A program made the position numbers and the translations under genes. Shown in pieces: positions 10,120 to 18,588 of a DNA stretch of 22,647 nucleotides. The DNA is from a bacterium (GTDB taxonomy: Bacteria; JAMCPX01). The notes beneath the pieces were generated by a model. That model was not told where the DNA came from, made no database searches, and saw only the letters and a program-made list of their open reading frames with translations. Numbering within the stretch: the first letter of the stretch is position 1; every line of letters starts with the position of its first letter. The stretch is from contig JAJYUJ010000038.1 of NCBI GenBank assembly GCA_021792615.1, forward strand, positions 1 through 22,647. The letters are read 5' to 3'.

Positions 10120-10686
10120 TTATGCGATGTCCCGGATCCTGCCGATGACATCGAGCAGCCTCCTGCTGAATTCCTCTTTATCGGCGCTGTTTCCCTTGTT
10201 CAGGTATGCGGACGGCTTCGTAAGATTCATCACCTTTTTGAAATTTTCATCGCACTTAACAACGGAAAAAAACAAGATAGGTATTTTACGGGACAACTTG
10301 AGGCCGGTTTCGAGTGCCCTCACTGTCCTCGCCGCATCAATGCCGTTTATAACCGGCATATTGACGTCGAGTATAATCAAATCTACGGTGGCATTCGCTT
10401 TCATGAGATCGCTCAACTGTGAAAGAAATATCCTGCCGTTTTCACTGTCTATGATATCCTTTGAAATACCCTTGCTTCCCACCAATTCCGAGACTTGCTT
10501 TCTCATGATAGCAGAATCGTCGGCTATAAGGATTCTGTCCATGACTTTCTTTTTGAATTCTTTCTTGGAAAGATCGAGACCGCATTCGGTACAGTGTATA
10601 CGTTCCTCTCCGCCGGTTATCATGATAAAGGGATCAACCATTTCACCGCAACTCGGGCAAAATACTTTAGGAATTTTATCTGCCAT
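10120..10686 (-). CDS. Response regulator receiver protein with N-terminal zinc ribbon
   Basis: A 188-residue protein with two parts. Residues 10-35 form a four-cysteine zinc ribbon (CPSCG at 10-14, CTECG at 32-36). Residues 50-185 are a CheY-like receiver: acidic pair Asp56-Asp57 in ILIADDSAIMRK, phosphoacceptor Asp107 in LIILDVNMPVING, switch Ser141 in ILFFSVVK and Lys164 in AYLNKG. All phosphorylation residues are present, so it should be functional. There is no DNA-binding helix-turn-helix or enzyme output domain, so the zinc ribbon may be the output or a partner-docking site. The ATG at 10686 is 4 bases after the dnaJ stop and has no clear ribosome-binding site, suggesting coupling to dnaJ; a TTG at 10722 inside dnaJ would lengthen it by 12 residues. 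No histidine kinase is nearby. Confidence 0.85.
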   Translation of the reverse strand: MADKIPKVFCPSCGEMVDPFIMITGGEERIHCTECGLDLSKKEFKKKVMDRILIADDSAIMRKQVSELVGSKGISKDIIDSENGRIFLSQLSDLMKANATVDLIILDVNMPVINGIDAARTVRALETGLKLSRKIPILFFSVVKCDENFKKVMNLTKPSAYLNKGNSADKEEFSRRLLDVIGRIRDIA

Positions 10687-10690
10687 GGAA

Positions 10691-11803
10691 TTATTGCTGG
10701 AAAAGGTCCTTAACCTTGTCAAATAAACCTTTTGACCCCGTCCTGATGTAGGCTTTCGTAATCTCGTCGAACTCTTTCAATATCTCTTTTTGTCTGTCTG
10801 ATATGTGTTTGGGCACTTCTATATGTACTCTCACAATCTGGTCTCCTTTCCGTGAGTCGTAAGGGTTGCCGATCCCCTTATGTTTGAGAACGAATGTTTC
10901 GCCGGAATTCGTTCCGACCGGTATCTTTAATTCTTCATCGCCGTACAATGTCGGGACTTTTATCGTATCACCGAGTACAGCCTGTGCATACGAAATAAAC
11001 ATATCCAGGATGATGTTCTGTTCTTCTCTCTTGAAGAGTGCATGCTCTTTTACTTTGGTAACGACGTGAAGATCCCCAGCAGGTCCACCGTTGTATCCTT
11101 CGCTTCCTTTGCCCTGGATCCTCAGGACACTGTCTGTATCAACGCCGGACGGAACGTGAAGTTTTATCTTTTCGTCTTTTAATACCCTGCCCGTACCATT
11201 GCACTCTTTGCACTTATCGATTATCTCATAACCGCTGCCATTGCAGACATGACAGGTTTTGGAAACCGTGAGGAACCCCTGCCGGTAATTCATCTGACCC
11301 GATCCATGACAAGCCCTGCATACCGATGGTTTTGTTCCCGGTCTGGCCCCGGTTCCGGAACACTGGGTACAAGCAACCGTACGCTTTATGGTGAATTCCT
11401 TGTCAGCACCCATAACGGCCTCTTCAAACGTAAGGTCGAGTTCAGCTTCAATATCCTTCCCTCTGAATTTCCTGCTTCTGGAAGACCTCCTGCCGCCGAA
11501 GAAATCGCTGAAAACGTCGCCTATGAGGTCCTCGAATACCGTTGACCCGAAAATATCTTCGTGTCCCATCCCTCCCATCCGCTCGAAATTGTGTCCATAC
11601 GTGTCATACTGGGATCGTTTTTCCTGGTTGCTCAATACGCTGTACGCTTCATTTATTTCCTTGAATTTTTCCTCCGAGCCTTTATCGCCGTTCGTTCTAT
11701 CGGGGTGGTGCTGTAAAGCGAGCCTCCGGTATGCCTTCTTGATATCAGCATCGGTTGCGTCCCTCGGCACTCCGAGAATCTCATAATAATCTCTTTTATT
11801 CAT
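10691..11803 (-). CDS. dnaJ: Chaperone protein DnaJ (type I Hsp40)
   Basis: Co-chaperone that delivers clients to DnaK and stimulates its ATPase. The J domain (residues 1-70) contains HPD at 33-35. A Gly/Phe-rich linker (about 76-106) follows, then a zinc-binding domain with four CxxCxGxG-type repeats from Cys145 to about residue 205. The C-terminal client-binding domains end in KDLFQQ. Length 370 is typical for full type I DnaJ. The start ATG overlaps the dnaK stop by 4 bases (ATGA at 11800-11803), so it is translationally coupled to dnaK. It is the third gene of the grpE-dnaK-dnaJ series. Confidence 0.96.
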
Positions 11804-14682: not shown

Positions 14683-16113
14683 ATGTTACTGCAATCTTTA
14701 CTGAAATATGTACACCGTATGTATTCATGGGCAAAAAATGCCTCCCCTATGAATATATTCATGCGGCTCAACTTAACGCAGAAGATGCTTATCGGTTATG
14801 CTATTCTGATTATAACCTCCATATTCCTTTTCATTTATGCCGAGGTCAGTTTCCGGCAGTTCAGAAAACTCAATAATAGTATCGTGACAATAGATATAAC
14901 CATACAGAAGGCAACAAACAGGATGCATGATGCTCTTATGGACCAAAATAATTATGAAAAAAGGTACCTCATTCTGAGGAGCAATGACATGATGGATCTC
15001 TTCTGGGAGCGGGGAAAAGAATTCCATGAATGGCTGAATGTCCTGAAAGATTTAAGGAAGAGCAAAGGATTGATGATAGAAGAGGTTCAGGAACTCCAGG
15101 AAGTGAGCACGATAGACAGGCTCTATAAAGAATATGAAGAAACAGTTGCACGGGAGACAGATCTGGTAAAAACAGGCAACATGAAGAAGGCGTACACGAT
15201 TTCGAATGTCGAGTTAAAAAGACTGGTTGACAAAATCGCATCCTCGCTCGGAAAAATGTCTGCAAATGCCAAAAATTATGAGGAACTGAAAATGGGCCTC
15301 ATCAGCGTCATTGGACCGAGTGTCCTCTTACGTACTATTGTTCTCTGGATTATCAGTATAACGGCAGGTGTACTCGTTGGTTCATTGGTGACATACCACA
15401 TCACATCATCCATCCATAAGCTCATCGTTGTTACCGAGCATATAGCAGAAGGAGATTTCGACTATGAACCGAAAATAAAGACCTCCGATGAGATAGGAAG
15501 TCTTTCAAAGGCGTTTATTTCCATGGGCAAAAGGCTGAAAGTGCTTGAAAGCATGTATCTTGATGCAAGTCCCTTAACACATCTCGCAGGCGGGATCGCC
15601 ATTGAAAACATTCTGAAAAAACATCTTGATTCCGGGGAGAAATTCGCATTTTTTTTGCTGGACATCGATAATTTCAAGGCATTTAACGATCAATACGGTT
15701 ATGCACGCGGAAATCTGGTCTTAAAAGAGACGGCAAAGATAATAGAGCAAGCGGTCAAAGAGAAAGGGGGACAAGGAGATTTCGTTGGACATATTGGCGG
15801 CGATGATTTTGTGGTAATCTCGATACCCGAAAGAATACATGAGATCGGCAATGAAATTATTAAACGATTTGATGCACGCATGCCCGATTATTACGATAAA
15901 AAAGACCGCGAGAACGGTTATATTATCGGCAAAAACAGGCAGGGGGTTGAAATAAAGTTTCCGATTATTACATTCTCGATAGCCGTAGTAACGAATGAGC
16001 GGCGAAGGCTGACCGATCCTATGGAAGTTTCAGAAATTGCGGCAGAGCTGAAAGATTATGCCAAAACGTTTCAGAAAAGTAATTATGTGATAGATAAAAG
16101 GGTGAAGGTATGA
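14683..16113 (+). CDS. Two-TM HAMP-GGDEF protein, putative diguanylate cyclase
   Basis: Inner-membrane sensor of up to 476 residues. TM1 is at about 35-52 (MLIGYAILIITSIFLFIY). A mostly helical periplasmic region follows, resembling the four-helix-bundle sensors of chemoreceptors. TM2 is near 208-232, then a HAMP domain (ITSSIHKLIVVTEHIAEGDFDYEP) and a GGDEF domain. The domain opens with SPLTHLAGGIAIE (296-308), and its metal-binding LDIDNFKAFND lies at 326-336. The active-site loop is GGDDF at 372-376, not GGDEF. Asp at the fourth position is acidic and may still bind metal, but activity is not assured. An insertion after the loop (about residues 395-420) separates it from the final SIAVVTN strand. 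No RxxD inhibitory site stands out. The start is uncertain: 14683 has a weak GGA, and 14749 would fit the usual distance to TM1. The stop overlaps the lipoprotein start by ATGA. Confidence 0.85.
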   Translation: MLLQSLLKYVHRMYSWAKNASPMNIFMRLNLTQKMLIGYAILIITSIFLFIYAEVSFRQFRKLNNSIVTIDITIQKATNRMHDALMDQNNYEKRYLILRSNDMMDLFWERGKEFHEWLNVLKDLRKSKGLMIEEVQELQEVSTIDRLYKEYEETVARETDLVKTGNMKKAYTISNVELKRLVDKIASSLGKMSANAKNYEELKMGLISVIGPSVLLRTIVLWIISITAGVLVGSLVTYHITSSIHKLIVVTEHIAEGDFDYEPKIKTSDEIGSLSKAFISMGKRLKVLESMYLDASPLTHLAGGIAIENILKKHLDSGEKFAFFLLDIDNFKAFNDQYGYARGNLVLKETAKIIEQAVKEKGGQGDFVGHIGGDDFVVISIPERIHEIGNEIIKRFDARMPDYYDKKDRENGYIIGKNRQGVEIKFPIITFSIAVVTNERRRLTDPMEVSEIAAELKDYAKTFQKSNYVIDKRVKV

Positions 16114-16550
16114 AAAGAAAATTCAGCGTTATTGCGGTTCTCCTGTTCGTAGTGCTGCTTCAGGCATGTGCTACTGCCATGACGCCCCACGAGGCGGAGC
16201 TTTACAATGCGGATCATCTTTTTAAAGCCGGGGAATATGATCATGCTATCGCCGCTTATAAAACGCTCCTGCAAAAAAATCCCGGTTCCGATATAGCTGC
16301 TGATGCACAATTTGCAATAGCTTATACCCATGTTTACTATGACAACCCGAATATCAATTATACCCTGGCAATGGGAGAATTCAAAAGGTTTTTGACCTTA
16401 TATCCGAATGACAGCAGACATGAAGAAGCCCAAAACTGGTATAAGGTATTAAAGACACTGTACGATACCAAGGGCGAAAATAATGCATTGTACAAGAAAA
16501 TACAACTGTTAAAACAGCTCGATATACAACGGGAACGCTCGAAACATTAA
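16110..16550 (+). CDS. TPR-repeat lipoprotein
   Basis: A 146-residue lipoprotein. The N-terminus is a lipoprotein signal peptide, KRKFSVIAVLLFVVLLQAC, with lipobox LLQ-AC, so Cys20 would be lipidated. The residue after it is Ala, not Asp, which by the E. coli rule favours outer-membrane sorting. The mature part holds TPR-like helices (AELYNADHLFKAGEYDHAIAAY..., then FKRFLTLYPNDSRHEEAQNWYKVL), similar in layout to short BamD/YbgF-like TPR lipoproteins. It probably mediates protein contacts at the outer-membrane inner leaflet. It overlaps the GGDEF gene by ATGA and has AAGG just before its ATG. It lies 7 bases before the PHP gene, so the three are one operon. Confidence 0.8.
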   Translation: MKRKFSVIAVLLFVVLLQACATAMTPHEAELYNADHLFKAGEYDHAIAAYKTLLQKNPGSDIAADAQFAIAYTHVYYDNPNINYTLAMGEFKRFLTLYPNDSRHEEAQNWYKVLKTLYDTKGENNALYKKIQLLKQLDIQRERSKH

Positions 16551-16557
16551 TCCAAAT

Positions 16558-18588
16558 ATGCGTAAAATAGTAAAATATCTTATTGTTGCAGTTGTTTTGG
16601 TGTACGTCGTAATCCAGGCATGGTTCATCTGGCCTGAATACGGCCATAAATTATTATACAAGTTTACGATATCTCCTCAAAAAGTCCTCAGCCGCGATAT
16701 TGTACTGCACAGGGATAAGCTTTATGCCGGCATAAATAAACAGGGAAACATAAACTATCTATCCAATGGTGCATGGATAAACACAATATCAGGTATAGCA
16801 GCACCATATATAGCATTAAAAAACCCCATGGCTGAAATGAAGCCTCATTTTGAACAAATACTGTACACTAAGTATCAGACATTTAAGTACGGGAATGACA
16901 TAACTGCGGTAAGTTTCTCGGGATATTCGCGTAAGCATCCTTTCATTCATATAGACACCGTATACCGGGTGTTTGGTGCCGGCACCATCATGATACATTC
17001 TCAGATAACGTCTTCCAAAAATGGCCTGCGTGCATGGGTTGGCGACAGGATTAAGACAAACACCCGTTCAATATTGTTTTATGTGCCTGGCGTCGGTAAT
17101 ATTACGACAGGTCCGCGGGATGCAATTTCTCCGCAAAAGCCTTATGTGGCAATGCTCGGCAGGGCAAATCAGGTTATAGGATTTTATTACACCGGCAATT
17201 TTGATCCGTCATATTTCTTTTATCAATGGAATTGGATAGCAAGTATGATGGAGGTTAAACTGACGGATGAGCCGTTAAACGTTACAAGAGTACTGTCAAC
17301 AAGATCCGTGACAGGCATGGATTATCAAAAGGTTGCGGACAGTCAGTATAAAAATTTCCTTGCGGTACAAAGCGGATTACAAATAACTGCATCATCGTAT
17401 ACGGTGATCTCGGATTATAATAAGTCTGTACTGTATACCGTCTATGTTAAAAATGTATCCGGAAAGCTAAAACACGTTACCGGATTGGTTTTGTTTGCGC
17501 CGAAGGATATAATGACAAGTAAGCCCTACACATCGATATCTGATTCACTCTATCCTGGCAGTACTTCCACGTTTGCCTTCAAAATAAAGGCTATCAGGGG
17601 CGGCGATTTCTATATCTATCCTGCTATCCTCGTCAACGGCAATTATATAGAAGGTCCATGGACACACGTTTTTTGCAACGGACCAGGCTGGTATAGTGCG
17701 GACATGCACAATCACTCTGTTTACAGCTTTAATCCCGAGGACTATCCCGTACGGGACATGACAGAGGCAGCCCATGCCAAGGGACTGGATATACTCAGCC
17801 TGACAGACTACAATACATTTTCACAGGCAGGCGCATGCAGGGCACAGTCGAGCGCCGATTTTCTGTGTATCCCCGGAGAAGAGATAGCAAATCCATTATG
17901 GGGGCATGCCAATGCACAGTTTATTCATAAAAAGGTATATGAGTTTTTGTCACCCCAGCATTGGATAGATGACGTCCATGCACAGGGCGGCATGTTCTTT
18001 GTAAATCATCCCTATCTTGAAATGCGGCAATGGAGGGATTGGAACTTTAAAGGGTATAACGGCATCGAGATCCTGAATGGAAACAAGATACCCATGGACC
18101 CGGTCAATGTTAAAGCATTCGATAAGTGGGATGAGCTGAACAGAACAGGATTGCATCTCTACGGTATAGCCGATTCTGACGCTCACACGCCGTATGCAGT
18201 AGGCAGATATAGAAATTATGTTTATGCAACATCATTTACTCTATCCGCAATAGAAAACGGTTTCAAAAAGGGTATGTTTTATGTGACAAATGGACCCATG
18301 CTATCGTTTACTATTAATGATAAACCCATGGGCTCTGTAATAACAGTGCACAGAGGCGATAACCTGCATATCCGAGCTGCTTATGAACCCTATGCCCAGT
18401 CACCTGAAAATGCGCCCGACATTCAGAAAATACTATTGTTTAAAGACGGCTATATTTTCGCATCATCCGACAATTCTTCTCTGGATTATGACTATCGAGC
18501 TGATAAATCAGGCTTTTATAGAGTAGAAATCTTTACAAACGACGGTGGATTTGCAGCATCAAACCCTGTATGGGTGAATGTGAAATAA
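16558..18588 (+). CDS. Membrane-anchored PHP-domain metallohydrolase (CehA/McbA-like)
   Basis: A 676-residue protein with an N-terminal TM anchor or uncleaved signal (YLIVAVVLVYVVIQAWFIW, about 7-25). About 350 residues of beta-rich sequence without a recognised domain come next, then a PHP-type metal-dependent domain at about 378-600. Probable metal ligands are Asp382, His384 and His386 (SADMHNHS), Asp417 (LTDYNT), Glu442 (PGEEI), His450 (GHANAQF), His484 (NHPYLE), and Asp541 and His543 (DSDAHTPY). The layout matches CehA/McbA-family hydrolases, which cleave esters or phosphoesters; the substrate is unknown. The C-terminal 80 residues form a beta-sandwich-like module. Since the anchor is N-terminal, the catalytic part is probably periplasmic. 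There is no clear ribosome-binding site, and the start is 7 bases after the lipoprotein stop. Base composition appears AT-richer than the first 4 kb. Confidence 0.85.
   Translation: MRKIVKYLIVAVVLVYVVIQAWFIWPEYGHKLLYKFTISPQKVLSRDIVLHRDKLYAGINKQGNINYLSNGAWINTISGIAAPYIALKNPMAEMKPHFEQILYTKYQTFKYGNDITAVSFSGYSRKHPFIHIDTVYRVFGAGTIMIHSQITSSKNGLRAWVGDRIKTNTRSILFYVPGVGNITTGPRDAISPQKPYVAMLGRANQVIGFYYTGNFDPSYFFYQWNWIASMMEVKLTDEPLNVTRVLSTRSVTGMDYQKVADSQYKNFLAVQSGLQITASSYTVISDYNKSVLYTVYVKNVSGKLKHVTGLVLFAPKDIMTSKPYTSISDSLYPGSTSTFAFKIKAIRGGDFYIYPAILVNGNYIEGPWTHVFCNGPGWYSADMHNHSVYSFNPEDYPVRDMTEAAHAKGLDILSLTDYNTFSQAGACRAQSSADFLCIPGEEIANPLWGHANAQFIHKKVYEFLSPQHWIDDVHAQGGMFFVNHPYLEMRQWRDWNFKGYNGIEILNGNKIPMDPVNVKAFDKWDELNRTGLHLYGIADSDAHTPYAVGRYRNYVYATSFTLSAIENGFKKGMFYVTNGPMLSFTINDKPMGSVITVHRGDNLHIRAAYEPYAQSPENAPDIQKILLFKDGYIFASSDNSSLDYDYRADKSGFYRVEIFTNDGGFAASNPVWVNVK

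Follow-up and report, generated by a model that had tools for sequence, protein, structure and literature searches.

In the QseE-QseG-QseF system (GlrK-QseG-GlrR), the lipoprotein QseG binds and activates the histidine kinase QseE; contact is made by the end of the QseG C-terminal helix, L209 lying against V77 and L78 of QseE (PMC12691602). GSU1937 of Geobacter sulfurreducens, a GGDDF protein that contains HAMP and carries the Hypr residue Ser348, is the second Hypr synthase of cyclic GMP-AMP (cGAMP); its deletion lowers a cGAMP reporter signal (PMC8835794). The GGDDF domain of GSU1937 fused to GacA gives both cGAMP and cyclic di-GMP and a GADDF mutant is inactive, while full-length GSU1937 alone is silent in Escherichia coli; a lipoprotein partner is nowhere mentioned in that report (PMC8835794). 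Here we compare these systems with three adjacent genes of a 22,647-nt bacterial contig (JAJYUJ010000038.1, assembly GCA_021792615.1, GTDB lineage JAMCPX01), the whole of which is called the window. The first two genes encode a HAMP-GGDEF sensor and a lipoprotein, and their pairing is a real, widely conserved module found well beyond the window's phylum. We think it reasonably probable that they make up a two-part envelope sensor, in which an outer-membrane lipoprotein would contact the periplasmic sensor domain and control cyclic-dinucleotide synthesis. The three genes are:

14683-16113, + strand: gene 1, inner-membrane HAMP-GGDEF sensor with GGDEF-type output, 476 residues (Pfam and 62 aligned full-length family members)
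16110-16550, + strand: gene 2, TPR lipoprotein with lipobox LQAC (Cys20), 146 residues (sequence, AlphaFold model and fold search)
16558-18588, + strand: gene 3, anchored PHP hydrolase of the CehA/McbA family, 676 residues (NCBIfam NF038032)

Genes 1 and 2 share an ATGA overlap and 7 bases separate the end of gene 2 from the start of gene 3, exactly as the first-pass annotation had described for the three open reading frames and their ends. Its operon structure, domains and envelope location also held, but its placing of all three genes in one envelope unit did not survive the distribution of the trio (see below). It had further stated that no named system has this set, which is correct for the trio but not for the pair, since the latter closely resembles both QseE-QseG and the cGAMP synthase GSU1937. 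A scan for promoter-like and terminator sequences gave matches at chance level. The window gave zero matches in an Rfam scan and thus no riboswitch was seen in it.

The pairing of genes 1 and 2 extends outside the phylum. Within the phylum, which is very small and for which nine genomes of a single family were sampled, full-length gene 1 orthologs occur in four. In genome G138, from another phylum, a full-length gene 1 relative shares 4 bases with a lipoprotein gene, and there is no PHP gene. When 394 genomes around G138 were searched with a lipoprotein profile, a full-length HAMP-GGDEF gene was adjacent in 28 of the 30 best loci, mostly with a −4 overlap. The reverse search with a sensor profile was positive in 40 of 395 Desulfobacterota genomes; 30 loci were read, two of which are cut at contig ends, and a profile-supported lipoprotein gene came next in 26 of the 28 with readable downstream DNA. 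The exceptions were L196, which has no lipoprotein, and L201, which is doubtful. No lipoprotein neighbour was present beside GHxGGDDF relatives with REC or other inputs (21 cases with listed neighbours). Conservation of gene order beyond close relatives had been proposed as the check on the first-pass annotation, and for genes 1 and 2 alone it is strongly borne out.

At L153 and L154 (genomes G394 and G408) the lipoprotein has an intact tip motif and lies near pth or an L25-type ribosomal gene, with no sensor gene nearby. Their relative L155 keeps a sensor gene between the lipoprotein gene and pth, and L153 and L154 therefore look like sensor losses.

The GGDDF active site of the sensor

With limits read from the sequence, the sensor consists of a first transmembrane helix (∼34-53), a periplasmic four-helix CHASE3-like domain (∼54-212) and a second transmembrane helix (∼214-238), followed by HAMP (236-286) and a GGDDF domain (298-473). 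Pfam scores were 59 bits for GGDEF and 41 bits for HAMP, and the CHASE3-like similarity of the periplasmic domain is weak. There is no EAL or HD-GYP domain, which gives the protein the same layout as the GSU1937-type Hypr GGDDF synthase. Two motifs define the active site:

15694-15714, + strand: YGYARGN, codons 338-344 (alignment and 9-residue spacing to N335)
15790-15810, + strand: HIGGDDF, codons 370-376, variant signature motif (62-member alignment)

The numbering of the window sensor coincides with that of PleD around residues 327-344. The family signature GHxGGDDF stands invariantly in place of RxGGDEF: H370, both glycines, D374 and D375 are identical in all 62 sensor-GGDDF proteins, as are D327 and K332, which together with D374 are the metal and phosphate residues. 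The base-reading position 344 is Asp in canonical cyclases (PleD D344) and Ser in Hypr enzymes, where the residues are Ser348 and Asn339 and the Ser is the signature of cGAMP-making enzymes (PMC6456294). Across the family this position is Ser in 48 members, Asn in 14 and Asp in none, whereas 21 of 22 GHxGGDDF relatives with REC or other inputs have Asp. In a midpoint-rooted tree, with a profile built from the family itself, the 62 sensor-GGDDF domains group as a single clade that excludes these 22 relatives (support 0.78). The GHxGGDDF clade as a whole is widespread and mostly fused to receiver domains (L098-L117), with a strong match in 38 of 193 genomes across the domain.

The window sensor and its orthologs have Asn344, and so carry neither the Ser of Hypr synthases (GacA Ser348) nor, with HIGGDDF, the RxGG[DE]EF and Asp344 of canonical diguanylate cyclases. 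The first-pass annotation called the signal 'cyclic-di-GMP-type'; given GHIGGDDF and Asn at the base-reading position, this is not established, and with Asn at 344 the product of the enzyme is not readable from its sequence.

An alternative is that the GGDDF domain is catalytically dead and serves as a nucleotide- or protein-binding receptor, with the lipoprotein still its sensor partner but no messenger made. The non-canonical GGDDF motif, Asn344 in the window and the loss of N335 from roughly half of the family members, which have A, S, G or T instead, would all fit such a receptor, and degenerate motifs are typically inactive (PMC8835794). Against this, D327, K332 and D374 are retained throughout the family, and GSU1937 is active with the same GGDDF motif while its GADDF mutant is not. 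We therefore regard a dead domain as unlikely and favour a working cyclase under lipoprotein control.

The resemblance to GSU1937 may extend to gene neighbourhoods. Like the window sensor, GSU1937 combines transmembrane HAMP and GGDDF regions with no other catalytic domain; they differ at the base-reading position, which is Ser in GSU1937 and Asn in the window. The published GSU1937 upstream deletion primer fits the Geobacter-type family members L199 and L200 with 2-3 mismatches, ∼650 bases before the gene, and the C-terminal primer fits the gene end in both with 4-5 mismatches. The peptide VQKLIA, read from the GSU1937 N-terminal primer, resembles VQKLVA in L198 and L200. Both L199 and L200 have the lipoprotein gene at a −4 overlap.

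YfiBNR is also alike, in that a lipoprotein passes an envelope signal to a HAMP-GGDEF enzyme. However, YfiN has a PAS sensor and works with a soluble repressor, YfiR, and the Pal-like YfiB, none of which is found at the window locus; no YfiR or Pal-like YfiB domain was detected by Pfam in the neighbouring genes.

The lipoprotein helix and kinase operons

The lipoprotein has a signal peptide, TPR hairpins (∼26-97) and then a long C-terminal helix (104-145). In the AlphaFold model (predicted local distance difference test, pLDDT, 84) this 42-residue helix carries the conserved motif:

16509-16544, + strand: conserved tip motif LKQLDIQRERSK, codons 134-145, the LKxLDIxxE-type ending of the family and the proposed sensor contact

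The LKxLDIxxE-type ending is common to intact lipoproteins of the window family and of other phyla, with the family consensus L-x-x-L-D-[IVM]-x-x-E-x-[KR]-[KR]. No Asp follows Cys20, which by the E. coli rule would place the lipoprotein in the outer membrane. A second lipoprotein of the family in this genome (L042; G000:C15, 1445-1882) is solitary: no sensor gene adjoins it and it lacks the C-terminal LKxLDI motif, consistent with a tip that serves the sensor.

Fold searches with the lipoprotein model returned BamD/YbgF-type TPR proteins, and QseG was not among the matches listed. In common with BamD and YbgF (CpoB), the protein has a lipobox or signal peptide followed by TPR hairpins; it is much shorter and ends in the long conserved helix. 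The likeness raises the question of whether it is an independent envelope-assembly protein, merely sharing an operon with the cyclase. This would account for the similarity of the TPR part to BamD/YbgF in fold and sequence, and for the solitary copies L042 and L156. However, the NCBIfam scores fall short of the curated cut-offs (TIGR03302, 49.3 against 81.4 bits; TIGR02795, 40.3 against 90.1 bits), TPR/YfiO similarity in Pfam is at or under its cut-offs, and pairing with the sensor is near-universal in both search directions. Across phyla, conservation of the lipoprotein is highest in the C-terminal helix and not in the TPR region, and the solitary paralog L042 is the one that lacks the tip. 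An independent assembly role is thus quite unlikely, and a partnership with the sensor is the better account.

The QseE-QseG-QseF system is alike in having a four-helix periplasmic HAMP sensor encoded beside a lipoprotein with a long C-terminal helix. Kinase operons of this kind also contain relatives of the two window proteins: six lower-scoring lipoprotein loci from the genomes around G138 (L158, L162, L167, L168, L171 and L172) have a HAMP kinase, a TPR lipoprotein and a sigma54 regulator. The pair lipoprotein profile scored 65-147 bits against the kinase-operon lipoproteins, the GGDEF-type periplasmic profile scored 39-80 bits against their sensor kinases, and their regulators scored 384-438 bits against E. 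coli GlrR. In L158 and L162 the lipoprotein domain is present twice. The window operon differs from QseE-QseG-QseF in its output, which is a GGDDF domain with no histidine kinase or response regulator gene in the operon, and in its lipoprotein, which is of TPR type rather than PF13942.

The family tip can be matched with L-T-D-I-E-R-Q-L-S-T-R-K in E. coli QseG, the likeness of LKQLDI to LTDIER being judged by eye and L134 being the proposed counterpart of QseG L209, and [KR]RYx[IV]L in the sensor can be matched with RQYCVL in GlrK. RxYxxL-like segments are common in CHASE3-like sensors, so that the sensor motif alone is not specific. A literature search found no paper describing the pairing or linking QseG-type lipoproteins to GGDEF enzymes, most subscription papers being out of reach.

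The PHP hydrolase gene and its neighbours

Gene 3 encodes a protein with an N-terminal transmembrane helix (∼6-25), a region of ∼26-370, a PHP catalytic domain (∼377-580) and a C-terminal beta domain reaching to residue 676. The N-terminal hydrophobic helix probably anchors the protein in the inner membrane, facing the periplasm. It matches the CehA/McbA metallohydrolase family NF038032 at 170.5 bits (cut-off 80), while the Pfam PHP match is under its cut-off. The metal-type residues H384, H386, D417, E442, H450, H484, D541 and H543 are invariant in 12 sequences. Profile comparison with CehA-type proteins, which share the PHP and C-terminal domains, aligned residues 372-675 alone. The ∼350-residue N-terminal region of the window protein is thus unaligned and was rejected as a CehA-type N-terminal domain; anchoring by an N-terminal transmembrane helix is a further difference. 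The first-pass annotation had suggested a structure prediction of this region; an AlphaFold model of the PHP protein had a mean pLDDT of 53, with long N-terminal stretches <40, so that its N-terminal part is not trustworthy, and Foldseek matches to the model indicated Ig/Fn3-like beta modules that were not used further.

The full trio was found in three species of one genus (G000, G002 and G003), where gene 3 directly follows gene 2 on the same strand after gaps of 7, 4 and 4 bases and is probably co-transcribed with genes 1 and 2. G001, of another genus, has genes 1 and 2 at a contig end. The short gaps in the trio would suit a single functional unit in which genes 1 and 2 regulate the periplasmic PHP hydrolase or take their input from it. 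The distribution speaks against it. The PHP gene occurs without genes 1 and 2 in G006, where it is located elsewhere, and in G007 and G008, two species of a sister genus in which it adjoins waaA (the Kdo, or 3-deoxy-D-manno-octulosonic acid, transferase gene) as it does in the window. G005, with the closest PHP protein (82%), has no lipoprotein end within 100 bases before the gene. At the 28 pair loci from outside the phylum no neighbouring PHP gene was seen, and in a set of 193 genomes from across the domain the full-length PHP protein was limited to the window's phylum. A three-gene unit is therefore very unlikely.

The trio thus fails the test of gene order beyond close relatives and was ruled out as a conserved system. 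It is an ordinary lineage-level adjacency, the PHP gene accompanying the pair in a few related species without being part of a conserved device. From their distribution in the phylum genomes, the PHP gene is a unit distinct from the pair, and the two adjoin each other in one genus. Since the PHP gene stays beside waaA in G007 and G008, it looks like an older neighbour, with the pair gained or lost next to it.

Two other genes of the window were noted:

10120-10722, − strand: receiver domain with an N-terminus resembling a zinc ribbon, flanked by dnaJ and a CofH/MqnC-like radical S-adenosylmethionine gene
1432-2151, − strand: 239-residue open reading frame with no Pfam match

A proposed lipoprotein-controlled cyclase at the envelope

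The sequences directly show that the two genes pair and do so widely, that the lipoprotein ends in a conserved motif, that the active site is altered and that kinase operons use sensors and lipoproteins of the same families. From these we infer a direct contact between lipoprotein and sensor, and a cyclic-dinucleotide product. The lipoprotein would sit in the outer membrane and span the periplasm with its long C-terminal helix, so that the tip LKQLDI would touch the periplasmic four-helix region of the dimeric sensor, and this contact would set cyclase activity through HAMP. By analogy, the direction of control would be activation. Stress moving the membranes apart, or a mis-sorted lipoprotein, would then alter the signal. 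The input from QseG to QseE would in effect be reused, with a nucleotide cyclase in place of the histidine kinase.

Several observations weigh against this two-part sensor. A few lipoprotein loci have no adjacent sensor (L153, L154 and L156). Direct sequence matches of the window sensor and lipoprotein to E. coli GlrK and QseG were tried and rejected as weak or absent: the C-terminal tip profile did not match QseG significantly (E 64) and the sensor profile matched GlrK weakly (18 bits). The relation to E. coli QseE-QseG is therefore one of layout and motif, not of proven lipoprotein homology. PF13942, the QseG family, is matched by E. coli QseG but not by the window lipoprotein, whose N-terminal part is TPR. 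Reading L199 and L200 as probable GSU1937 orthologs depends on primer matches; a search for G. sulfurreducens itself by its C-terminal primer gave no match in 48 family genomes. We know of no measured activity for an enzyme with Asn at position 344, and variant motifs are often inactive.

A broader proposal, which we offer tentatively as a possibility short of probable, is that the pair represents a class of envelope sensors with members in several phyla, whereby an outer-membrane lipoprotein would directly gate a cGAMP-type (Hypr-like) cyclase through a QseG-QseE-type input, the kinase having been swapped for a cyclase, and the cyclic dinucleotides made by the Asn344 branch, to which the window belongs, may be of a different mix. 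The conserved lipoprotein beside the enzyme is a concrete candidate input for GGDDF cGAMP synthases such as GSU1937, and if the proposal is true a missing lipoprotein would explain why full-length GSU1937 is silent in E. coli. The lipoprotein-sensor contact of QseG-QseE would then be a portable input with at least two different outputs, and the outer membrane itself would report to cyclic-dinucleotide signalling.

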